Of a DNA stretch of 64,000 nt, positions 19,863 through 59,529 are shown piece by piece (the first letter of the stretch is position 1; every line of letters starts with the position of its first letter). A program made the position numbers and the translations under genes. The stretch comes from Ulota crispa (lineage: Eukaryota > Streptophyta > Bryopsida > Orthotrichales > Orthotrichaceae): NCBI GenBank assembly GCA_963920765.1, contig OY987248.1:19502539-19566538 (forward strand), read 5' to 3'. The notes below the pieces were generated by a model. That model was not told the DNA's origin. It worked only from the letters and a program-made list of their open reading frames with translations, and did no database searches.

Positions 19863-20981
19863 CTAGCTGGTGGGAAAAATGGGCATGGCATGTTTTTCCT
19901 TTGGCAAGGGACTTTCCAAAAACCATTCATGGTGGAGTGCCTCTTCTGCGGTAATTCGATTTGCTGGATTACATGTAAGCATCCGGGTCATCAAATCAAG
20001 TCCTTTTGAAGATAATGTGGGCTTTGCAGTGGATGGTTTTTTGGGGAAGTGTCTTCTTAATTTGTTGTATGGCTGTTTGGCGAATTTGCCATCAAAAAGC
20101 TCTGTAAATTCAGGCCATGTCTTGTCATTTGGAGTCCCAAGCATCTTGAATATCTTGTCAATTTGGTCGAGCTCAGTAGTTCCTGGGAACAAATGCTTTT
20201 GTGCAAGTAACTCTGCCATGATGCAACCTAAAGGCCACATATCAATAGGGGTAGAATATAAGGGTGTTCCAAGAAGAACCTTGGGTGGTCTATACCAAAG
20301 TGTCACCACTCCTAGTGTGTAACGTGAAGGTGGATATGCATAGTCACATATCTTAACTTCTCCACGATTGTTCAAGAGAATGTTGGTTGGTTTCATGTCT
20401 CTATGTAGGATCCAATTGTCATGCAAATATTTCACACCATCAAGAAGTTGCAGCATTAAACATTTGATTTCACTTAAAATAAATTGGTGTTGCATTTGCT
20501 CCGTGAGCTCTTCAAGGTTGTGTTCAACATACTCCATTGCTATGAAAATCTTTATGTCATAGATGTCAATAACATTCTCCTTCATAAGAACCTCTTTTAA
20601 TTTAATAATAGATGGATGACTAAGAGATAATAAAATGTCAATCTCTTGCAAAGACATAAGGAGAGCCTTGTCTTCTACCCCTTCAATCTTGAATTCTTTT
20701 ATAACCACAATTTCTCCAATTTCTCTATTGCGTGCACATGAGACCACTCCATAGGTCCCCTCGCCAATCTCATTGAGTATTTCAAAGGCATCAATTGACC
20801 TATATCCGCTTATTGAGTTTAAATCACTGTAGCTAAGTAAGTTTTCTGAAGTACGAGCTTGCTTTGATCTCTTCACTTGAGTTTTAGACCTAGATGTGGA
20901 ACAGTAATTTGAAGAATTTTCTTCAATTTTCAAATCTCTAGGAGCAATAGCATGTTCTATATGAACCAAATCATTATCCAT
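19863..20981 (-). CDS. Intronless CDKG/CDK11-like protein kinase with altered DFG and APE motifs
   Basis: A single frame of 372 residues read from the ATG at 20981. Landmarks: GEGTYG loop (73-78), lysine in VVIK (K95), a helix-C glutamate in SLQEID (E113, where CDKG/CDK11 have PITSLREI), HRDMKPTN (193-200), then CDYA (212-215) where the family has CDFG, a shortened activation segment, VVTLWYR (225-231), PPK (232-234) in place of APE, and the C-lobe end EALHHEWFLESPLP. The relatives phosphorylate splicing and transcription factors. The lack of introns suggests a retrocopy. Metal-binding Asp213 and catalytic Asp195 remain, so weak activity is possible, but loss of F, G and the APE glutamate argues for a pseudokinase or a young pseudogene with an intact frame. 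Confidence 0.75.
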   Translation of the reverse strand: MDNDLVHIEHAIAPRDLKIEENSSNYCSTSRSKTQVKRSKQARTSENLLSYSDLNSISGYRSIDAFEILNEIGEGTYGVVSCARNREIGEIVVIKEFKIEGVEDKALLMSLQEIDILLSLSHPSIIKLKEVLMKENVIDIYDIKIFIAMEYVEHNLEELTEQMQHQFILSEIKCLMLQLLDGVKYLHDNWILHRDMKPTNILLNNRGEVKICDYAYPPSRYTLGVVTLWYRPPKVLLGTPLYSTPIDMWPLGCIMAELLAQKHLFPGTTELDQIDKIFKMLGTPNDKTWPEFTELFDGKFAKQPYNKLRRHFPKKPSTAKPTLSSKGLDLMTRMLTCNPANRITAEEALHHEWFLESPLPKEKHAMPIFPTS

Positions 20982-21049
20982 TTTAGCAAAGCTATTTGAA
21001 TATTTGATTATTGAGCTCTGTGTGAGTCTCAATGCATGTTTAATACTTC

Positions 21050-21578: not shown

Positions 21579-24500
21579 CTAGTGAAACAGAGGTAGCAGA
21601 CCGAATTGGTGAAGAACACCTTGTCCACTCGTGATTTCCAAAACAAGAAGTGTTAAAACAGCCAACATAGCGGCACGGCCGTTCCATGTCTCGGCACTCT
21701 TTGTCCATCCCCATTGCCACATCGAAACCGGTGCAGGCAACTCTCGACGAAGTGTATCGTATGTGGCTAGCAGCTGCTCCACACTTCCTAATGGCACAAG
21801 TGACTGCACAAGACAGAGCACCTTTGAACTTAGGAAGGAAGAGTACAACTCATGCTGTGCTGATGGATGGATGCCTGAAACATCTAATATGCCGCTTAGT
21901 ATGACAGCTTATCGTAGTTAGAAATAGAGACCTTCAATGCCTGAAACTACAAAGGGTTGGAGAATTCCTGGTGAAGGGCTCATACCTGACGAGCTTCTAG
22001 GTTTGACACAGCCATTGCTCCCACGTACGGCAGAGCCTCAATGATAGCATCTGCTAAGTCTGCAATGAAACCAGGCTCAACGCCCAATGCAGGTACCCTA
22101 CCCCAGTTCCTAATGCCAGATTCTAGGGCCAATTCTCTGTACTCCATATCGATCTCCTCCAAAGTCTCAATGTGCTCACTCACAAAGCTGCACCCATCAT
22201 ATTGCACATCCCTGAGCTCACATGAATCTGTGCGTAGACGTTGAAATAACACACTCCGTGCAGTAATTAGGATACCAGTTTCAGATCAAGTTTTTTATTT
22301 GCAGTTACTAGCACTAGGCAGTAGACTATTCTCGTGTCGCACAATTTAAGTCGTTATGCACAAAAAGAAAAAAGTAATGAGCTATTGAGATGATAACAAC
22401 ACAAAGACAAATCCACCTTCCAGAAGACGAACCTGACAGGCACGGCCAAGAGGCTCTTCACACCATCTTGCCCAAGCTCTCTGATCGTGACATCAGTGTA
22501 AGGTTTGAGCCACTCAACCGGTCCCACACGACTCTGTTCGAAATACCAAAACAGCATCATAAAGCGTCAGTTAATCACTCACTAACTCTAAAATATTGAA
22601 AAACTTGCAAGTACCTCTTAGGCAGCAGGAACCCTCATTCTTCACTACAGAATACCAGCCTCTATACACAGAAGCTAAACATGCTCAACAACAGCATACA
22701 GTACCATGTGATTCTAATAACACCCCTGACGAGTCAACGTGGTTCCTTGTGCAAAAACGAATCTCAAATAAGAAGAAACCTCCCAAAAACCGAATTGTAC
22801 AAGAGCGATCAAGCAAATACTACTCATCATCAATTGAGTAAGGACGACAACCCAAATTTAATTCCAATACAGCTTCCAAATGACAACCAGAGCAGACCGA
22901 TTTACCTGATACGCAAGCGTGTGTGGGCAACGGATACCACGACTTTTTACTGCAGACATGATAAGTTGAACACATTCTTCCATTTCAGCCTTATAGGGGT
23001 CTCCTGCTTCTTCAACATAGGCCACTGGCACACCGTGGGCACTGAAAAAAATGTGTACCTGCAAACAACATTCAATTTCATATGTTCAGTAAGATGCTTG
23101 TATACAAAAAATGAACCAGCATCACAGAAAATCATCTACCTGTAATACCGACAAATATTGGAAGCCATGAATACAGCAGAATGTGAGTTCAATCCCACCT
23201 CTTCAGGCTTCTCAAACTTTGCTAGTTCCTTTTGAATAAGTGTAGCCATTGACTGCACATATCCATTGCGATTATACCATGACGGAATTACTGTATGCTG
23301 CATGTTGACAAGATATTCATCCTGCCTGCCAAACACAGTACGACGTGACATTCTTAGAGGTAAGTAATCGAGGTTCAAACATACGTTCGCAACGAGCATG
23401 ATCCACAGAAATTCATAATATTGACTGCATAAATGTGTTTGATACCTGAAGATGCTCTCTAGAAGACGAAGACTGGAACCACTAGTTGATATCGAAAACT
23501 GAGGATATAAAGGAAGAACCACCAGACGAGTAATTCCATCCTCCTTGATCTGCAAAGTCCGTTATGAGCATCATTAGAAAAATGAAAGAATATATACCCA
23601 GGCAGCTGACCATCAAATACTTGATCAACAATTTTAGGAAGCCGTCTACTAGAGTTGCCAATTGCAGTCACCTTGACCAAAGCATTGGGCCACTCATATG
23701 GCCACAATTTCGTTTTTAAGTGATACCTGAGAAATAGCTTCTTCCGTAAATGGATGCCAATATCTCATCCCTACGTAGACTTTAGCTGGTAGATTCTTGG
23801 TCTTCAGAGCAGCCTTAAGAGCTTCAGCCTAATCCATATACAAAAAAACCACACAGGTCAAAAGATTCCAAAACTTTACGTCCCACATCCAATTATAAAC
23901 CAATGTCTAAATAAGGAAAAAAGACAGAGCTGAAGCGTAACACGGATATATCTCCAGATGAAAAACTCAATCCGAGAACATTCAGCACTAACCGGCTTCA
24001 GATAAGAATAGCACAACCTGCTCATTTGTCATTTGTCGTAATGGTGATCCTCCTCCTATCGCCGCGTACCCCTCAGCACTCTTAGGAGCTCGTAAAGTGG
24101 AAATGAATGTTGCTAATGGTCTTTGTAAGAACCTAAATAATCGTGGCAGCCGTATGATGTCCTGTTATCACCAAGATATACGGTTCAAGTCTATCAGAAA
24201 CCTCAATCTAGAGCCGCCTTTCCTACATGAGCTTGATGTCTCAACCGCGGTCCGTCAACAAACTTATGATCAACCCCGGGAGAGGGAACTATTACCCTGC
24301 ATGCGTTCATACAAGTACTTCCAATCTTGCTTATGCAAATCTGGAACATGGATTAATAAATTGTTACAGATGAGTTTTATACTTGAAATCGCAAAATGGC
24401 AGTGATACAAAATTTCACAGAAGGCTCAGAGATGTGTACCGGATCAGCAAAGAGGTTGAACAGAAAAGGCTGCACATCTTCAAGTGTGTCTGGTCCACCA

Positions 24501-26241
24501 AGATTCAGGAGCAGCACTCCTACTCTTTCTTGTTCTTGTCTTTGCTCGTTATCATCAATCAGCACATCCTCTGGTGCTATCACTTTCGCTTCCTCTTCTG
24601 CTGAAGCCACTACAGTAACCCTTACAACACCCGAGTCCCGGGCTCTTGCTATAGAGCGTTGCCGTCGGTTATTGCTGGTTCCCGACTTCACTCTATCAAT
24701 ATCAATAAAGTCCGTCCCCAGGCCTTGCCTCGACGTCCATGATACGCTCTCACTCTGGCAAGAGGGACGCAAGCGCAAAGAATCCCTACAAGATACCAGC
24801 GCCTGCAAGCCAAGAATAGTGTCTCTGTTAGTCTCGTGAATTCCTATAAACCCTAGATCCTCTGTTCTCTGATGATCACCATTAGTCTGCAAGAGCAAAA
24901 TCGAGCAGACATGAAAACTAATCTAGAATTCCAACAGGTCATCAATTGATCAACGCAACTTGTTAGGATGAAGAACGCAGAATTGTAACTAGCAAACACG
25001 AAAAAAAAATCCTGAACGTGAAATTGAGAAAAGCGTTCTTTGAACCAAACAAGAATAGATCTGCAGGTTTTGACATGGTTCTGCAATCAAGATACATCAC
25101 TCACAAACATTCGCGCGAAAAAAAATAGCAAGAAGTCAAGAACTTCATCTAACAATTGTCATTATGTTGATTGAAAGTAATTTAACATCAAATCTTGCAT
25201 TTCTGGTTTTAAATGTACATTGAACAACATATAATGTCTTAATTTAATTCAATTTGAAAGTTTTACAAACATCACCATTTCCATTATAAGTGCAAATGGT
25301 GTTCAAAACAAGCTAGTAGTGCAAAATTCTTGCAAAAAAAAGGTGAGAGTAGAGAATGTTTGTGAACGCAACTTTAGTTCACACCGGCCTTGAAAGAGAC
25401 TGAAGTTCATCTTTTCTGAGCTAACGCTTAAATACTGTAATGACCTAATACAAAACTCAACACCAGCGTGCCCTGAGTCGTAGAACAAATTTTAAATGGC
25501 TCCTGTACAGCACATCCCATTCTACATCCTCTTTCTCTTGGCAACTTCTCCTATTTCAAGATACTTTCTTTGCCAAAAATCCTTGGAGAGAAATAACTCC
25601 AATCTTGGTAAACCCTAATTGCGTGAAAACACTATTGTACTGGAACTCCTCATGTCACTACCTCGAGACGAACAAAACAAACTACCTACCTTCCCGATGT
25701 GCGAGGGTTTCCCAAATATATCGCATACGCCACAATTCTACGATAATTGTAACAATCTGCATTCTGTGATTGTACATGACCGAGCGGACGTATTCGTCGT
25801 TTGACCGAGCATCCAAAACGCAGTAAATTAGGACAAATTGTAATTTATCGAGGCAATAGAAGACAAACACAATCAACGTCCGAATGTTTTTAGAAAGTAT
25901 CACACGGCCTCCCTCTGTGATATCAAGTCATGAATGCCGAGCTGCTCCACTCATCGGAAGATACGGAATCTTTTTATGTTTCCTTGATCGATAATAATGC
26001 GGGATTAATTTCTACGTACTTTGGGAGAAAGTGAGGTCGAAGAAGACAAATAAGACGACGAAGATGATGATGATGATGCAGTCGAATTAGTGCTCCGCAA
26101 GGCAACAAAACGAGTAGTACGTGCTCGCCGCGACACGAAACAAGAATTGGCTTCTCCGTCGTGCTCGGCTGCTACACTGTTGCTACAAGATGCGTGCCCT
26201 CCGGATGGGAGAGAAGGCAGGAGGGTGGCGATGGCGGCCAT
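21579..26241 (-). CDS. Plastid ferrochelatase with light-harvesting-like C-terminal helix (10 exons)
   Basis: Minus-strand exons: 26241-26020, 24886-24440, 24161-24018, 23828-23727, 23549-23446, 23325-23199, 23058-22906, 22533-22433, 22187-21986, 21803-21579; 608 residues. The enzyme inserts Fe2+ into protoporphyrin IX to make haem. Exon 1 is a Ser/Arg-rich transit peptide with a serine run. The core starts at [18 protein letters not shown] (about 195). Also seen are [30 protein letters not shown], the catalytic histidine in FFSAHGVP (about H390), [11 protein letters not shown] and [13 protein letters not shown]. The C-terminus has ETWNGRAAM (572-580) and a hydrophobic helix ending TSGQG, the chlorophyll-binding-like motif of type II (FeCH2) enzymes. 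The poorly conserved stretch before the core is long. Confidence 0.95.
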
Positions 26242-31319: not shown

Positions 31320-34300
31320 TCAATCCACAAGCTGTGACGGCAAGAACACATTAGGAAAGCCCCACACAGCAAATGGACCCCACTTGTAGATTTCTGTTCC
31401 TGTACGCATCATTGTCAACATGGCCTTGCGCAGTGCGGAGGCTACGGACTCTCCTTTTCTCATGTGGGTGTAGAACTCCTTCATGAACAGAGGACTGTAT
31501 TTGTCGTCCATTTCCCATTGCGACATAACAACACATGGAACCCCAGCCGCCATAAAAGCCCGAGGAAGGTTTAGAACACCTTCAGAGATCACCTGCGTGA
31601 CAATATCCAAATCAGCAGTGGTGAGCGAGGAGAATATAACACCATATTCGTTAATTTGGGAAAAATGGTACATTTTGGGACTTTCAAATTTTGATAGGAA
31701 GGTTTTAGGTGGCCTCCTAAAACCTACATGTGTCCTCACCTAAGAGGAGGAATTGGCGAGGGAAAAAATCTTATTGTCTCATACTAAATTTGATACTTTT
31801 GAATCTGATTTAAAGTAACTTTTTGGGTTTAAGGTGGAGTACAAAGTGGGACACTTGTTTTTCCCAAATTAACAAATATGGTGTTAATATAATATCCTCC
31901 AATAATTAATAAGTCTGCATTTGTGGTGCTCCTCACTGAACATTTAGTAGCACTCCTGCAGCGTGCCCTCCCTCCAAGAGAATGGTGTGGAATTTTCCAC
32001 ACCCACCTTAAGCTATGGGGACACTTGGCTGAATTTGTCAAAGAGTTTATGAAAAAGAGGCTTAGTTTAGTGCACATACATCAATGTGGGGGCCAACCAT
32101 GTCAGGAAAAAAAAAAACTGTCAGGATGAAGTTCATAGATTATACCTGAAGAGAGGGAAAGGCAGCCTCTCTTCAGGCTACTGAATGTTATGCATCTTCT
32201 GCTTCAGCTCCTATTAATTGTTTGAAGTACAATTTAAGGGTTAAGGAGTCCTTTTTAATTAGCATGATACATAAGCACTCAACACGGTTACCATGGCCTC
32301 TCTGCTAGCAGAGACTGAGTCTCTTGTACGTCCAAATAAATAAACTTTCCATCCTGCTCTACCAAATTACTGCAATTCAAACTTCGTTGGTAAATGAGAA
32401 TGAATTTTGATTAGACAAAGATCACTGTTTCATTTTTTTTAAACAAGTATTATCAAGTCTTATCACCCCCGTACTTTAGAAGGAAGTAGGCGGTTTGCTA
32501 CTAGAAACACCACATGTCTCTCATAACCAAAAAGACCCTGCAATCAACCCCTGGGATACCACTGCAATGTGCTTGTGATACTATTGTGGTACCTACACGA
32601 TATCCGCAACCCTCACCAATTTAATTGGTGGCTACACACTCCCAGCACGAGAATTGGTTAAAATCGGGCTATTGAAATTTCCCATGGATATCCTTTTGTA
32701 TGTGTAGCAGTCTCATTTTTTTAGTAGAATTTTGCAGAATTTGACCAGGAAAAAAAACGCTGACATAGATATTAGACTAACAATTCTAAGGCGACCATGG
32801 TCATGTATGTACTGAGGCAATCAGTGCGGACATTTAGAAAATGGCCTTGTTCATTTGAAATTTAAGAAATCGAAGACCTGCATGGATTTGAGGGGATCTT
32901 GGCATACCTGTCCTCTCGAGGTGTTGCACGCACTCAAGACGATGAAGTAGGCACGCCAGTCAATACCGCGCTTGACGATGTCTTCAGAACGGAGAAACTT
33001 GCCGCCTGGCATGCTGTATCCAACTCTGTTCTTTCTGATGCCTCCTACCTCGCCAAATACATTAGTCTCACGTGTCTTTGTACTAGTATTTCCGTCTGAA
33101 CCAGCTCTACTTGATGATGGTATGGAATCGTATGATGCAGGGGATGTTGAGGATCCACCTATGGCTGCAATTTATACGGAAAGTGAGCTTGTTATCGGTT
33201 ACTTGACACACTTACTAGTGCTCACCTTCACTCTGCTAAATGTAACATCAATGTAAACTAAGTCAGTTGATCTTCAATGGTCGCATGATGAATTAAGACA
33301 TTGGGCAGTGAGTTTACCGAATAAGTCCTTCGAGCCAGATGAAGATGCATCATCACCTGACAATCCAAGAGCCTCCATCTCACCTACCAGCATCCCTTCG
33401 TATATCTTCTCTTTGCCATGATCATCTTTCTTCCATGGTGAATATTTGTGATCAGCAGATATCGATTCACCTTCAGCTGCAAATTCAATAAATATCAGTA
33501 TAAAGCACATCATCGTTGCAATGGCAGGTATCCCAAAAGTCCTGCTAGCAAAAGCCTAGCATTACCTTAGAAACGTTGAGTTGTTTGGATGTCATCTACA
33601 CATTAATTGCAATCATGTCTAACAAACCTTTAAAAGTTAAATTCGAACACTATCCAAGTTATGTCTTGGTTTCGGTGGACTAAATTATTTTAACTATAAA
33701 AATTGTTTGTGTGCACTCAAATTTCATGTTTCAGTCGTGAAAATCTCATTATTTAACAATTTTTAATTGCTGAAACGGTGACTTACCACCAAAAGTCCTG
33801 GACGTGGAGCTTGGAGGGTCTGTCAATTCCAAGGCCCCTTTTGGGTAATCTTTAGTCACATGGCCGTGTACTGCAAAATGAATACAGGCCTGAGTGCGAT
33901 TCTTCTTCGAGGCATTCTCAGCAACATCCAGCACGGCATTGACCGAGGCATCGAACCCTCTGAGGATCCCAACACATTGGCCTGGCTTCTGCTGGAATAC
34001 ATCTGCAATGGCGTTCATTTCTGCCTCTGACCCCGGTAAACGGCCGCTTCTGTCTGAATAAGCAGGATTTCCTACTAAAAAAACTGGTGTTGTATCATCC
34101 ACCAATTTCAGGTTCTTGAGATACGAGTAGCGTTGCTTACAGAACCCCAGAACCTGCAGAGAGGGAGCAAGGGAAATGGTATGGCTTTCAAACAAAAACT
34201 TATTTGTCTCAGGATTTCGAAGTAGGGCAAACGGCACATTTGCCAGCACCTGCACAGCTTCCACAACGTCAGTGACCATGCTGTGAAAGCTCATGTACAG

Positions 34301-37300
34301 TACATTGGTCTCTAACAAACGGCAACAATTTTCGTCAAAGGCAAGCATTTCACTATTGATGTTTTAATTTGCCTTGAGTAAACTATGAGTAGATTGAAAC
34401 TTCAACATGCAATCGGGAGCCAGACAGTGAGAATTGTCAATCAACGTACACCTTGGGGAGCAAAAAGCACGTTTTCCTCAGGACTTTGTGGCAAGAACTC
34501 TGCAATGGGTCGAATAAGGAGATCATACAATAATTCTAGCCGAGCAATAACCTCAGCCTCATTGTATTTATTTTTTGTTGTGGATGCCTCATCTTGCTTT
34601 TCGGATTCCGAGTTTTTCAAGTCGATTCCTGACATAATAGAGTGAAGGTCGTCCAAGAAAGACTTTAACCCATTCGCAATGGTATCCGAGATGGCCATCA
34701 TACCGATTTGGCATTTCTCAGAACTCTGTAAAACGGGCAACCAAAAAAGCACTAGAGAGATGAGACTTTCATCTTGATGTACTAATCGATCTCACTCCCA
34801 ATGGTGGGTTCTTATGAGTTGACGGTTTCAAACATCCAACCGAGTGACTGCTAGTCCTAAGCAATGTTTCTTTTTCTAGCTAAATTTCACAAAATCCCAC
34901 AAAGAAAATACTGAGGCTGTTGCACATACAATTATACAAATGAAAATCAATGGGAGATTTTCAATACCCTGCAAAGCAATTTTGATGCTGGGAGTATGTG
35001 GCTACCAATTAAATGGTGAGGGTTGTGGATATCATGTAGGTAACACAATGCTGTTACTAGGGTATCACAGTAGTGTTGCAAGGGTTGATTGCAGGGCATT
35101 TCCTGGTAATGGATGCTGTAAGCTATATTTAGTTGGTGCGCAGTAGCTAACATACCTCCATCCAGTTGTAGGGGGTTGCCAGACCTGATAATATTGGTTT
35201 TTCAATATAAAAGAAGAAACACTGGTCCCAAGGTTGATCAAGTCATAATCAGGGCTGCAAACCTTACTTGAGATACGGGTCGAAACACCACGTAGGCATA
35301 AATTGGGCCAGTTGAATCATCACCACCAATGTCGGGATCTTGGACCCAGTAGGAGTACTCCACACAGACTGTCCTCTCGCCACATGCCAATTGACCATTC
35401 TGGATGGCATTCCAGGCTAGCTGCGTGTGGCAACTTCCAAGGGTGTGTCAGAAATGCATATTTTGTCCAAAACAAATTCTCACTATTGAAATCATTACAA
35501 TATTTCAGAGCAAAGAGTACCCGTAATCAACCAATATAGGTTCCCTCACATTGAAAACCATGCTGTGGTAATAATCATCCATGACTATACCCAATTCACC
35601 ACTGACATTGTATTCCACACGTTAAATTCCCTCCAAAACTTTGAACAACTAGTATCCAGTAGGAAGTAGGAACACATTGAACCACTGCTATCTCAGAAAT
35701 GCTAATAACTCACTGAAATGACAGATGCCAAATTAGACCAAGCATGAATTCAACCATAATTTCTAAACTAACCTACGTGGTCGTCGGAGTCAAAGAGCTT
35801 CAAAGCATGCGTGGGTTCAGGACTTAACTAGCCTGACCCCAGCTGATAGACTAATGTCCTTGTTCGTCCTCGTTCTGAAGAAAGTATTTGTCGCTTGAAG
35901 AGCTCGTCTATAAGGTTGAGTCTATCCCTCTTTTCTTGCTCAGAATACCCTCTACAATCAAACAGCTCCACAATTTGTTCAAGGCTTTGGCATGCGACGT
36001 CTTCTTTCTCTGAGTAGTCTCCACTGTGCACTAAGCCTTGAATCATCAATGCACAGGCCAATTGCTGAATCATGTAAACATCTCTAAAAGGCCAGTCATT
36101 AATCATGTGTGACCACTCATCGCTGAGGTCATTTGCAGCATAAAGAATTTCTGCTTGCTTTGCCATCTGGAGACTACCTAACTTCTCCAACAACTGCAAT
36201 TCGATTGGATGATATGCGTTCCATGTGACGTTTGCAAATGGTCCCTTCTCACCTGCGATTCAAGAAATTCAAGATACTCAAGATATTCCAAGGAAAACTT
36301 GAACTGATTCCATGACGTCTTAATTGCAATGTTGAAGTATTCTAAAAGATAAAACTCACATATTCTAATACATATTTGTAACAAAACGCATTCTTGTTGA
36401 ATTAGGGCATTTTGAAGCACCAGTGCCGTAGGTTATAAGCAGCTTCATCGCTTTAATGTCGAACAATCAAGTCTATTGAGTGACACATCATCTTTTCCAC
36501 CGTGGGTCCAAACTACTATAATGTGACACGCGGCACTCCTTTCAAAATGCAATTATTTTTGCAAGAGGCTGCTTGTAAAGTACAGTATTCAGATCAGAAA
36601 ATAATGTGTTAACCCTTAAACCACCGAAAGGCCCTTTGCGACCAGTACACCAGTACAGTACAGTGCCCCTCAGTATATTTACATTCGGGCTCATTTTGCC
36701 CTTCATAAAACTTTGGTTAAAATAAATTTTAATTTGCATTTTTAAACTTGAATCTTGGTTTTGTAAATCTTATGCACTCTCAATCAGCATACTAAATTTT
36801 AAGTCCAAAAAATCAAAACCCTATTTTTAGTAAATTGTTTTATATTAAAATCACGGTTTTACACAAAAATTGATTGAAGAAAATTGGTGATGAATTTTTG
36901 AGATTTGATTGCATGAGTATGCAGGAAACATCCATATACACCCTTTTCATGTTGAGAAAATATCATTAAGTAAGACAAACATGATTTACAAAGAAATTAA
37001 TATCAAATCAACATGGGATGTGCTAGGACCACAATTTGTAAAATAGATATCTCTATTTTTTAATTAGATTTTGCTATTTGACTCATATGCTATGACTAAA
37101 TTTGTACCTATGAGCATGACAACATGTTCACTTAAGCAAAAGCTAGTTAAAAAATAAAGATATCTATTTTACAAATTGTAGTCCTACCACACCCCATGTT
37201 GATTTGACATTGATTTCTTTGTAGATCATGTTTGTGTTACTTGATGATATTTTCTCAACATGAAAAGGGTGTATATGGATGTTTCCTACATATCCATGCA

Positions 37301-49107: not shown

Positions 49108-49307
49108 NNNNNNNNNNNNNNNNNNNNNNNNNNNNNNNNNNNNNNNNNNNNNNNNNNNNNNNNNNNNNNNNNNNNNNNNNNNNNNNNNNNNNNNNNNNNN
49201 NNNNNNNNNNNNNNNNNNNNNNNNNNNNNNNNNNNNNNNNNNNNNNNNNNNNNNNNNNNNNNNNNNNNNNNNNNNNNNNNNNNNNNNNNNNNNNNNNNNN
49301 NNNNNNN
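49108..49307. other. Assembly gap (200 N)
   Basis: Exactly 200 undetermined bases, a conventional scaffold gap whose true size is unknown. Frames drawn across it are artefacts. Confidence 0.98.
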
Positions 49308-54580: not shown

Positions 54581-57500
54581 CTATAGCTTGAGAATTGCAG
54601 CTCCAGCAGCTGGTTTTGAAGCAAAGATGTAAAGATCTAAATCATCCTCTTCAATTTTTCCCTTCTTCACTAAGGGATCATAGTAGGACTCCTGCACAAA
54701 CGACAACCACCAAACCAAATAAATGACAAAAAACTAGAGAAATAACATTTCCTCCCATCCTTCAACATATTAGTACACCAAAGCGTACCATTTACATGAT
54801 CCTTACATCATAGAAATTAGAAAGATTTGGTACACACAGACCAAGGAGTGTACAACCATAACCAATTGACAATTTTAAAACCCAGTCTTGGAGTCTTTAA
54901 AACAATTCATACAGTACTCAAATAACGCTTTATTTTTTTAGATACATTTTTCGAAAAAAGGTGAAATAAAAACAGATTCCTTCTAAAAACTGTTACTGAG
55001 GTTTTTGAATGGGAGGTCCCATCTTGATTAAGGGAAAAGCAGAGATTAAAATACCTTGAGAGAAGAGATGAATGAATCCACTTCCTCTTCCTTGACAAGT
55101 GCAACAACGCAGCCTCCCCAACCGGCTCCAGTTAACCGGGATCCAATTGCACCGTTTTGTCGGCAGAGTCCCACTAAACTCTCCAACTCGGGACAACTGA
55201 AAGAGCACATTAGCAAATAATTAATTAAAAAAATTTGAAAAGGAAAGACAGAGTACAGAGAAAGGTCCGTAAAATCCAAAGAAAAAGACAAAACAAACCT
55301 GCATTCATATAATATGCTGCAGCTGGTATGGCTTTCATTCATAAGTTCTCCTAATCTCTTCATCACCAACTCTTCGCTGGCATCACATTCAACCCTCAAA
55401 GTTAGAGAGAGTTCTATTACAAAAAGTATTTAAAAATATGACCAGTTTAATAATGATAACTATGCAAAGTGCTTGAAATGTTCAAATCGGGTATATTTTT
55501 TTATGAATTTGCACACATGAAATGACATTTATGAAGATTTAAAAGTACCTGTCAGATTGCACAGTTGCTCCCCGGAAATCATGCACTCGGGCAGCTTCAG
55601 AATACACATGCTTGGCTCTCTACACAACATCCACTCACACTCAATAAAAAGATCTAAATAACCAGCGTTGTTGAGAAACTTTGGCAACAAGCTCTAATCA
55701 GCAACACGTGTAAGTTCAATTAACCCAAACCCAGTCTTATATTAAAAGCTTACAGAGAATTCTCAAACTTGTGACAAACTGACCTGATAGAGCTTGAAAT
55801 GGGTGGCAGCAGCCAACACAGCCAGCGTAGTAGACGACTTCTTCATAACAGAAGTCAGTTTCTCTTGCAGGATGGCTTCGATCTCCTCAGTGCTGTATGG
55901 AACTTCATGCAAAAACTTCTGCAGAATGTTTTGAGAAACAAATCACTGAAAAAGATGCAGCGCCCAATTGGAATAAACAAGCTGCTAATCGCAGTTGTAT
56001 CTAGAGATGTATGGTTTTTATATATCCATATATTCCAAAGTACAATTTTCAATGCATGGTTCCTGGCACTATCCTCGATAAAATCCTCACTAATCTGAAA
56101 ATTTGAAAAGTTATTAATTGGCAAAAGAAAGGGCTTGAGTAGTACCTCAACAGCGATGACAGGGCTTGAAGAACCCTGGGTAGAAGCGTATTTAACACAG
56201 AGACCCTCGACGTCTGAGAGTGTATGGACTGACGTCTTGGTCTCCTCCAAAGACATCCCAAGTTTCACAGCTAGTACCATCTGCCACATCAAGCCGATGC
56301 TCAATATTGGAAGAAATTTGATTTTCTGGTTATGTACTTTGACAAAATCATGAAAGTTTAAAATAGGCAAGAAAGGATAATTTCGGTATGGTAGCAGGAA
56401 GTAGGGTTGGGTTCATGCAAGTATGAAGAAAATTTTAGTTTAAAAGTAAGATTTATAGTGAAGAAGAGGAATGTTACGGCAGCCAAGCGACACTCCACAA
56501 CGCGGTTGTTGTAGTTGGTGGCAGCAGTCTCTGCTTTTTTAGATTCTGTGAGAGAATTGGCAACCACAAAGGACCCGGACTTGGGCAGCACCACGTCACT
56601 TGCCCTGATGGGACCAAAGTCTATCAGCTTTGCCACGCCCGGCATTGCCATGATGGAGATTGCCTGGTCCATCCCTCCGGATTGTGTTCCTATGTGACGC
56701 TCACATGTGCAGCTGAACTCCGCTACCTCTTGCTACAAAATCATAAGCACCAGCATTCTTCCACGTCAACAAAATGGTAGCAAGGCCAACTTAACATATC
56801 CTAGATAAGGACTCCTTCAAATTTATAATAAAATGAAAAAAACAGTCCTTCACTAGCACCGAGCAAGTGAAGCTGACTACCTTGAGGAAGCTTAGATTGA
56901 GTAAAGAGGAGAGGGACACAACACTAGCACAGACCAGAGCAGAGGAGCTGGAAAGTCCTGCACCTGTGGACACACAATACATAAAGAAGTAAAAAAATCA
57001 CAAAATATCAGAATGAAGAAGGTGACCTTAGTACTCGATTTGCTTAGAGATGACATTATCGCGATTGCAGATGAGCACACAATAGCTGCAGAACTTGATA
57101 ACCCCGCCCCTGCACTTCCATCAACCCCATATGTGAAACTTATTATAGTCACTCCACAAAAAGTGCATAAAAAACTAACTCATTCAAGGAACTCAAAAAG
57201 TGGGTAATAGAAAAAGACAAAGAGAAACGTACCAATTGGAACCATGCCATCAACTACAGCATTCAATCCTACGTTGTTTTGAACACTTTCTCCTTTCGAC
57301 GCAAGATGCTCAAAAACGCCCTTGTATCTGTAGTTCAAAGTTCGGAAAACAGCGTCAAATGCAACAATCAGATTGAATAGCAATGTCCAGCATCCATCAA
57401 AAGACAGACAGCGAGTACTCATACCAACACAATGAAAGAGAGAGAGAGAGTCCATACCCGCAAATAAAGTAATTTGCCCACACATGATTCCCTATATCTA

Positions 57501-58932
57501 CTTCCTGTTAAAACCCAAGCACAATTTATTAGCTTGGCCTCTAAGGGACCAACAACACATGGTTTAAAACTTGCCGATTCATTTAATCCTGTTGTGGAAA
57601 ATAAACTTCAGATGGAACCAAATTGTAAATCACTAGAGTCAGAGCAGAACATTGCATGTGTTTATATCAAGAAACAAAGAAAAACGAAAACTTCTCATAT
57701 ATAAAAAAAGGCCTCAAAAACAACTTGAACTACAATAAGGTGGTGAATCAAGTAACCTGAGATGGGTCAGCAGGAAATTTGCAAGCTTGAAACTCAGACG
57801 AATCCACGTTGGCAATGTGCAACGTCAGGGGCTCCTCCTCTCGCTTACCAATAGCAACCACCGTGTCTTGACGAATTGCCATAGGAAGCACAGAGTAGCC
57901 CTCGTAGTCAATATGCTCTCCAATTAAATTCACCCTTCCTGCAAACACATCACAAATAATGAGCTCTAATAGGAGTTACGTCAACAAATCTAACAAGGTT
58001 AAACACACGAAAAAACAGGAGCCACCGGCAACATGTCCTTGATCCAATCCTAAACGGAGATTTAAACGAAATACTCTATTCCATAGTGTCTTCAATCTCA
58101 TTTAAATCAATCCTAAACTTATCCAATGTTATAATTAATGATATGTTCTATCCAACATACTATCAATACCAACAAAAAAAAAAGGTTTCAACTCCTTCCT
58201 TTTAGCTTTCGTACAAATCGTACAAAACAAATGCTTACAAGCCCAATGTAGCCCTTCTGATGTTTCAATAAAGTTAAAAGTCATCTATTCATTATCAAGG
58301 AAAACTTCATAGATACCCCTGAAGTTTGCCATATTTACATAGATACCCCTACTTTTTCAGAAATTTCACAAATACCCTTGGACCAAAATTTCCAGGTGTT
58401 TGTTTTGTTGTGCATGCCACTTCCTTTCTTCCTTTGTGCGCATGCATAACAAGAAATAAGTAGTGTGCGCACAAAGGGAGAAGGAAGTGACATGCACAAC
58501 AAAACAAACACCTAAATTTTTTGGTCCACAACTATATATGAAAACTCTGAAAAAGCAAGGACATCTATGAAAACATAGCAAACTTCAGGGGTATCCATAA
58601 AAAAAATTCCCTTATTTTTTGTAATTTCAAAATAATGTGATTATTATGATAAAGCTTCTATCAAAGCAAAGATGGCTCCTATTATCTTATGTGCAGCCAT
58701 GGCAAACATCTTTCTATACCAAGCATGTCTGAATGATTTGCAAAAGTATGGAGATTAGGTTACACAAACCTGGAGCACGGGCGTAGAGCTCAGGCTCCCG
58801 GCCATACAGCTCCACGAATCGCTTCTTGAGGTTTTCATATCGGAGAGATGCGTCCTTCAATAGACTGCCTTCGCCATAAATCTGAGCGAGAGACGTGAAG
58901 ACCGGCACCAGCTCCTCCATGTTGTCCGCCAT
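54581..58932 (-). CDS. GALK1: Galactokinase (GHMP family) with a duplicated exon 5
   Basis: Minus-strand exons: 58932-58770, 57938-57757, 57504-57458, 57327-57233, then 57109-57027 (5a) or 56963-56881 (5b), 56732-56478, 56280-56146, 55918-55784, 55619-55549, 55394-55299, 55196-55055, 54691-54581. With one exon 5 the protein has 504 residues, close to plant GALK1. It phosphorylates galactose at C1 with ATP in the cytosol, salvaging galactose from cell walls and glycolipids. Landmarks: [19 protein letters not shown] (55-73, the galactokinase signature), GAGLSSS (163-169, ATP loop), [46 protein letters not shown] and LTGAGWGGC (442-450). Only one of 5a and 5b can be used per transcript without a frameshift. 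Confidence 0.95.
56881..57109 (-). other. Pair of alternative exons 5a and 5b in galactokinase
   Basis: 5a (57109-57027) and 5b (56963-56881) are each 83 nt, both entered in phase 1 and left in phase 0. They encode 28 residues each, with 15 identical: both start GAGLSSS and keep VC and the final K. The intron between them is only 63 nt. 5a has a weak donor (AAG|GTCACC), 5b a better one (AAG|GTAGTC). Both have sound acceptors (GTGCAG, TCCACAG). Confidence 0.85.
58308..58600. mobile_element. Foldback MITE in galactokinase intron 1
   Basis: Inverted arms of about 140 bp: CATAGATACCCCTGAAGTTTG against TGGATACCCCTGAAGTTTG-type ends, then GGTGTTTGTTTTGTTGTGCA in both arms and TTTGTGCGCA near the centre. 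The loop is short, so the transcript would form a long hairpin. Confidence 0.85.
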
Positions 58933-59529
58933 CGTAAAAATCCAAAAAAAAAATGTACAAAAACCTTAGCACTCACCGCAGAAAAACCCAAACCCTAAAT
59001 TCTGCACAACGAAACAATATAGATCGCAACAGGGTAAGCAAGAAGGGGAATAACAGCAAAGGTGCATGGATCCAAGCAGCTTATAGAAGTAGGAGAGACT
59101 AATCTAAAAAAACCTAGAAACTTGATTTGGGTTATTATTAAACCTTGACAAAACAGAAGTCCAAGTGCACAAATTAGAAGTACGTCTGTCTCCCAATACT
59201 GTATCTTGTCGAGGAACTATCAAAATAAAACTTAAGTAAAAGCTAAACTCCTCAACAGAATCCAATCCTGAATTTAAGACTATTGGGTTGATCTATAGCA
59301 GAAGTCGCCTTCCAGTAGTCTCATGAATCAACAACCTTCTTCGTAAAGTAAGGATTTTGTATCTTTGTATGTGAAAGTGAAACATTTTTGCATAAATTTT
59401 CGAAAAGAAGCGTCAAGGGTATGGGTCTTTTTTACCTGAATTACACTTATTCAAGCTTGCGGTTTTAGGACCACCAATGTAGAAAGGGCAAGGTATGAGT
59501 ACTTACAATTCAGGGAAAACAGCATTGGG
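58933..59529 (-). promoter_or_regulatory. Galactokinase 5' leader region with a probable leader intron
   Basis: A donor-like AATT|GTAAGTAC near 59508 and an acceptor-like TTGTGCAG|AATTTAGGG near 59000 could bound a 5' UTR intron of about 0.5 kb. Common plant first introns sit this way. No transcript evidence is available. Confidence 0.4.

Follow-up and report, generated by a model that had tools for sequence, protein, structure and literature searches.

Two adjacent, putatively mutually exclusive versions of the ATP-loop exon in a galactokinase gene of the moss Ulota crispa

Described systems and the moss galactokinase gene

Tandem mutually exclusive exons are already known, and several described systems can be compared with the galactokinase gene analyzed here, which lies in a 64,000-nucleotide (nt) stretch of the moss Ulota crispa (assembly GCA_963920765.1, contig OY987248.1, positions 19,502,539 to 19,566,538; hereafter the window, in which positions are counted from its first letter) and carries its exon 5 in two adjacent versions, 5a and 5b. 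Statements attributed below to PMC-numbered sources refer to excerpts of those sources. In Arabidopsis, FLM/MAF1 has two neighboring coding exons that are used in a mutually exclusive way and give two protein isoforms (PMC3266260); it encodes a MADS transcription factor, its exons swap the I-domain, and the 3' exon was judged recent, whereas the moss pair is old and lies at the ATP loop of an enzyme. Mutually exclusive exon events are likewise reported for a component of an enzyme complex in plants, in the vacuolar H+-ATPase subunit H genes of crops (PMC6829547), but these were called from annotated transcripts, several lie in untranslated regions, and the excerpt mentions neither tandem duplication nor a catalytic loop. 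DAL19 of Picea abies has mutually exclusive exons backed by expression evidence (PMC6243048); in this MADS gene they are alternative first and last exons tied to the choice of promoter or end, while the moss pair is internal. In yeast, Gal1 and Gal3, a kinase and a sensor, are set apart by variation at the same loop (PMC7614384, PMC5089864). These are separate genes, and Gal3, which lacks two residues of the loop, is not a kinase (PMC7614384, PMC5089864), whereas both moss exons keep the full loop length. Human N-acetylgalactosamine kinase GALK2 (PDB 2a2c) is the best solved match of both moss isoforms and has a single loop version in its chain. A search of the open-licence literature found no report of mutually exclusive exons in a galactokinase, which is weak evidence of absence. 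A galactokinase is an unusual location for such exons, and the reading of the pair as mutually exclusive is well supported by the sequence; from it we infer use in RNA.

Exon 5 was very probably duplicated in tandem long ago, its copies now serving as mutually exclusive alternatives. The gene was rebuilt exon by exon, and the following features are used throughout.

58932..54581, minus strand: whole galactokinase gene, exons 1 to 12 with exon 5 present twice; start codon (ATG) at 58932, stop codon at 54581
57233..57327, minus strand: exon 4 of the gene model, the constitutive partner upstream of 5a and 5b
57110..57174, minus strand: 65-nt intronic run before 5a, invariant between the two gene copies described below; candidate regulatory element
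57027..57109, minus strand: exon 5a, 83 nt, residues 163-190 of isoform A, donor AAG/gtcacc, purine-rich acceptor
56964..57026, minus strand: spacer between 5a and 5b, 63 nt (62 nt in the second gene copy), GT...AG
56881..56963, minus strand: exon 5b, 83 nt, residues 163-190 of isoform B, donor AAG/gtagtc, pyrimidine-rich acceptor
56478..56732, minus strand: exon 6 of the gene model, the constitutive partner downstream of 5a and 5b

All 12 introns of the model have GT-AG borders, the spacer being counted as one. Isoform A (with 5a) and isoform B (with 5b) are each encoded by a single open frame of 1,497 nt, giving 498 residues. The Pfam cut-offs are passed by both isoforms for PF10509 (82.4 bits), PF00288 and PF08544 (61.9 bits); PF00288 (GHMP_kinases_N) scores 48.7 bits in isoform A against 55.4 bits in isoform B. 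The galactose-binding signature and both GHMP domains (N and C) exceed the curated thresholds, and the gene encodes a complete galactokinase of the GHMP kinase superfamily. Among solved structures, 2a2c scores 359.9 bits with isoform A and 358.5 bits with isoform B, followed in both cases by yeast galactokinase (2aj4) and Gal3.

The anatomy of the pair fits tandem mutually exclusive exons: adjacent, homologous, compatible in length and phase, and preserving the frame only when a single one is included. Both exons begin in phase 1 and end in phase 0, and 15 of their 28 residues and 37 of their 83 nucleotides are identical. Inclusion of both leads to a stop within 5b, and inclusion of neither to a stop early in exon 6. 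An earlier note on this DNA had claimed the equal length of 83 nt, the shared phases, the 63-nt spacer and the 15 identical residues, and the rebuilt gene bears these out to the base, together with the flanking junction positions 57233 and 56732 and the claim that double inclusion or skipping breaks the frame. On another reading of the same frame effects, the enzyme is made from one exon only, and the other acts as a decoy or poison exon that persists because mRNA decay, triggered by its use or by double inclusion, adjusts the amount of enzyme. The two premature stops and the weak acceptor of 5a would suit such an arrangement; yet either exon alone restores the full frame, unlike a poison exon, and both carry the kinase loop and a codon-position-specific conservation, and we regard the decoy as improbable.

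Origin and constraint of the exon pair

Agreement between 5a and 5b depends strongly on codon position: 14 of 27 sites match at the first position, 19 of 28 at the second and only 4 of 28 at the third. First and second positions together agree at 33 of 55 sites, a level reached by none of 20,000 codon shuffles, and outside the GxGLSSS motif 8 of 21 residues are identical (shuffle P 0.002). The identical codon is used at 2 of the 15 common residues, 1 of 9 fourfold sites agrees, and the three loop serines are coded TCN-AGY-TCN in each exon. On these figures the similarity is evidently not chance. Because third positions are randomized while positions 1 and 2 are conserved, the pair is best read as an old tandem duplication of one exon, both copies of which were kept under protein-level selection long afterwards.

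A DNA search of the genome revealed one further copy of the galactokinase gene, on C3, and a PF10509 search found the same two genes; the 28-residue 5a query matched four places, namely two exons in each. The C3 copy differs from the window copy (C7) with a synonymous divergence (Ks) of 0.10 and a nonsynonymous divergence (Ka) of 0.007-0.008, computed from an alignment that excludes exon 1. It keeps both exon 5 versions, their frames and their splice dinucleotides, without insertions or deletions in 5a or 5b. In 5a, 2 of 83 sites have changed, one synonymously and one replacing Ser by Tyr; in 5b there is a single, synonymous change among 83 sites. Taken together, these 3 differences in 166 sites contrast with 197 in 2,121 aligned intron sites (one-sided Fisher P 1.4e-4), an intron set that takes in the spacer and 200 bases of intron 1, and show no contrast with the 35 in 1,251 sites of exons 2-4 and 6-12 (P 0.61). 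The spacer itself, with 3 of 62 sites changed and one insertion or deletion, is not significantly below the other introns (P 0.27). Both exons are thus, to judge from these counts, constrained like coding exons in the second copy, and the mutually exclusive reading proposed in the earlier note gains support from this as well as from the fitting anatomy. Intron divergence (9.3%) is close to Ks, which disfavors gene conversion of the whole gene.

These data also bear on whether one of the two exons is an unused relic of the duplication. Parts of either exon do diverge from human GALK2, to which 5a and 5b are identical at 10 and 12 of 28 residues, respectively, as a relic might. However, third positions are saturated (4 of 28 agreeing), yet frame, loop motif, length and splice sites are intact in both exons, and each evolves like an exon rather than an intron when tested singly against the introns (5a, P 0.015; 5b, P 0.003), so that a relic is highly improbable. 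We give practically no weight to the double exon being an artefact of assembly or haplotype. The window does contain a run of 200 N at 49108-49307, an assembly gap or a withheld stretch, but it lies about 5 kb past the 3' end of the gene; the same layout recurs at a second locus with the intron divergence given above, and agreement at only 37 of 83 nucleotides excludes a misassembled repeat.

The similarity between the two loci extends beyond the gene. Patches of 80-92% identity connect window 41771-63661 with C3 24965093-24980796 in the same order, and these collinear patches show that the duplication took in the surroundings as well as the gene. Intron 1 of the window copy contains an inverted repeat (58299-58602), perhaps a small mobile element: its two parts, 58299-58470 and 58463-58602, align in opposite directions with C3 segments that overlap each other.

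Predicted splicing of the pair

For the old pair to act as mutually exclusive alternatives, exon 4 would be joined to 5a or to 5b and the chosen exon then to exon 6, giving two full-length enzymes that would differ only at residues 163-190, the ATP phosphate-binding loop with its helix and turn. A spacer this short is probably below what the plant spliceosome can handle, which would sterically block direct splicing of 5a to 5b; transcripts with both exons or neither would meet a premature stop and probably be degraded, so that the frame penalty would clear leaks. The likely mechanism of exclusion is steric, with frame disruption as its backup. Exon 5b is probably the default and 5a the version in need of activation, since the acceptor of 5a is purine-rich and weak and that of 5b pyrimidine-rich. 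We infer alternative RNA use, the steric block, decay of wrong forms and the default and regulated roles from anatomy, frames and conservation.

The spacer, with 63 nt (62 nt on C3), is the shortest intron of the gene; the others measure 102-831 nt. The minimum functional intron in monocots and dicots is 70-73 nt (Goodall and Filipowicz, as reported in PMC1626468), and PMC1626468 itself derived a plant intron cutoff of 73 nt. The spacer falls below the 70-73 nt minimum, a limit for monocots and dicots that may not be that of this moss. The earlier note had placed it near the lower limit of plant introns; the spacer is indeed short, but this wording understates the case. Candidate branch points of the form YTNAY lie in the spacer at 13, 19, 37 and 45 nt from the 5a donor.

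The donors of 5a and 5b had been said to differ in strength. Scored by a simple match count to MAG/GTRAGT (out of 9), they are equal at 6/9 each, the other ten donors ranging from 4 to 8; it is the acceptors that differ. The pyrimidine fraction is the lowest of 12 at the 5a acceptor (0.32) and the highest at that of 5b (0.68, tied with exon 11). Incompatibility through the minor spliceosome was considered and rejected, as the 5a donor, compared by eye, is unlike the U12 consensus. Competing RNA pairing was also considered as the means of exclusion. On visual inspection, a short complementary stretch around the 5a acceptor seemed to favor it. Pairing was rejected, as folds are no better than those of shuffled sequence (z -0.38 at the 5a acceptor, -0.43 over the whole region) and the best folds differ between the two gene copies.

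Several points weigh against mutually exclusive use of the pair. Introns below 70 nt might be spliced in this species, the lengths surveyed being those within this one gene. Neither the 5a acceptor nor the whole region gave an RNA structure signal beyond shuffled sequence. The 65-nt invariant run before 5a is the longest in the aligned introns, yet its permutation P of 0.09 is suggestive and not significant, and the run was rejected as a 5a-specific intronic element. The conservation test covers one second gene copy of the same genome; the three substitutions in 5a and 5b are too few to separate, by themselves, coding from nucleotide-level constraint, and one of the three is the Ser to Tyr change in 5a. 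Finally, exon 1 has no good match in 30 kb at the C3 copy (the best being 15 residues, E 0.66) or in the rest of the genome. About 0.9 kb with exon 1 (window 58471-59347) is replaced on C3 by about 5.6 kb of other sequence (C3 24971948-24977526), at whose ends self-comparison showed no repeats. Because exon 1 was lost there, the C3 copy may now be decaying, and its constraint is perhaps older than that loss.

The exchanged loop and its significance

Going by the GHMP fold, we take the 28 exchanged residues to comprise the GLSSS phosphate loop, the helix that follows it and a turn ahead of QEVAEF. The loop GLSSSA(A/S)(F/L/I) is typical of all functional galactokinases (PMC7614384); the 5a loop, GLSSSAAI, fits it, and the 5b loop, GLSSSSAL, is off at one position, like human GALK2, with which 5b shares a ten-residue stretch. 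The earlier note had described 5a as resembling the usual sequence early in the segment and 5b late. Against human GALK2 no such division appears, the identities in the first 19 and last 9 residues being 8 and 2 for 5a and 10 and 2 for 5b, although that claim had concerned plant sequence. Over all 28 residues 5b leads in identities to GALK2 (12, against 10 for 5a) and in the GHMP_kinases_N score, though 5a is ahead in BLOSUM62 score (56 against 50 for the segment) and in bits (isoform A by 1.4 overall), which argues against a simple GALK2-like 5b. In mean hydrophobicity of the last nine residues, 5b (1.00) exceeds both 5a (-0.97) and GALK2 (-0.22).

Since the full loop length is kept in both, both isoforms are likely active, and they may differ in kinetics, stability or partners. 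It is conceivable, if doubtful, that splicing switches between a Gal1-type loop (5a) and a GALK2-type loop (5b), that the isoforms differ in how they use nucleotides, in catalytic rate or in preferred sugar, and that the switch controls the salvage of galactose or galactosamine. If true, an early-diverging land plant would be exchanging the active site of a metabolic enzyme through mutually exclusive exons.

Other features of the window and genome were noted in passing. A domain scan, which took 10 of the 37 stop-to-stop frames of at least 110 residues in the window, gave the following open frames.

19866-21047, minus strand: open frame with a protein kinase domain
33752-34363, minus strand: open frame with a CHAT domain
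24380-24922, minus strand: open frame with an N-terminal piece of ferrochelatase

Two PsaD genes with equal scores lie on C3 (158358-158947 and 186754-187343), about 28 kb apart and in opposite orientation. Among solved chains with a single domain, 7ksq, 8htu and 6l35, which are from Physcomitrium, score highest with a PsaD exon of this genome (187.6, 186.5 and 185.2 bits, the next reaching 177.3), which makes a moss or near relative the likely host; the three-domain chain 9vfj has a larger total (338.2 bits), but each of its domains gives 111-114 bits.

The cited plant cases of mutually exclusive exons are, in the excerpts referred to, mainly transcription factors (FLM, DAL19; PMC3266260, PMC6243048) or annotation-based events in an ATPase subunit (PMC6829547). 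The 63-nt spacer and the clear frame penalty make the moss gene a compact system for testing steric exclusion in a plant, and 5a and 5b provide two natural versions of the loop that divides kinase from sensor in yeast Gal1 and Gal3. Should an old, constrained tandem pair indeed exchange the ATP loop of a sugar kinase, plants would be seen to employ mutually exclusive exons within catalytic sites as well.
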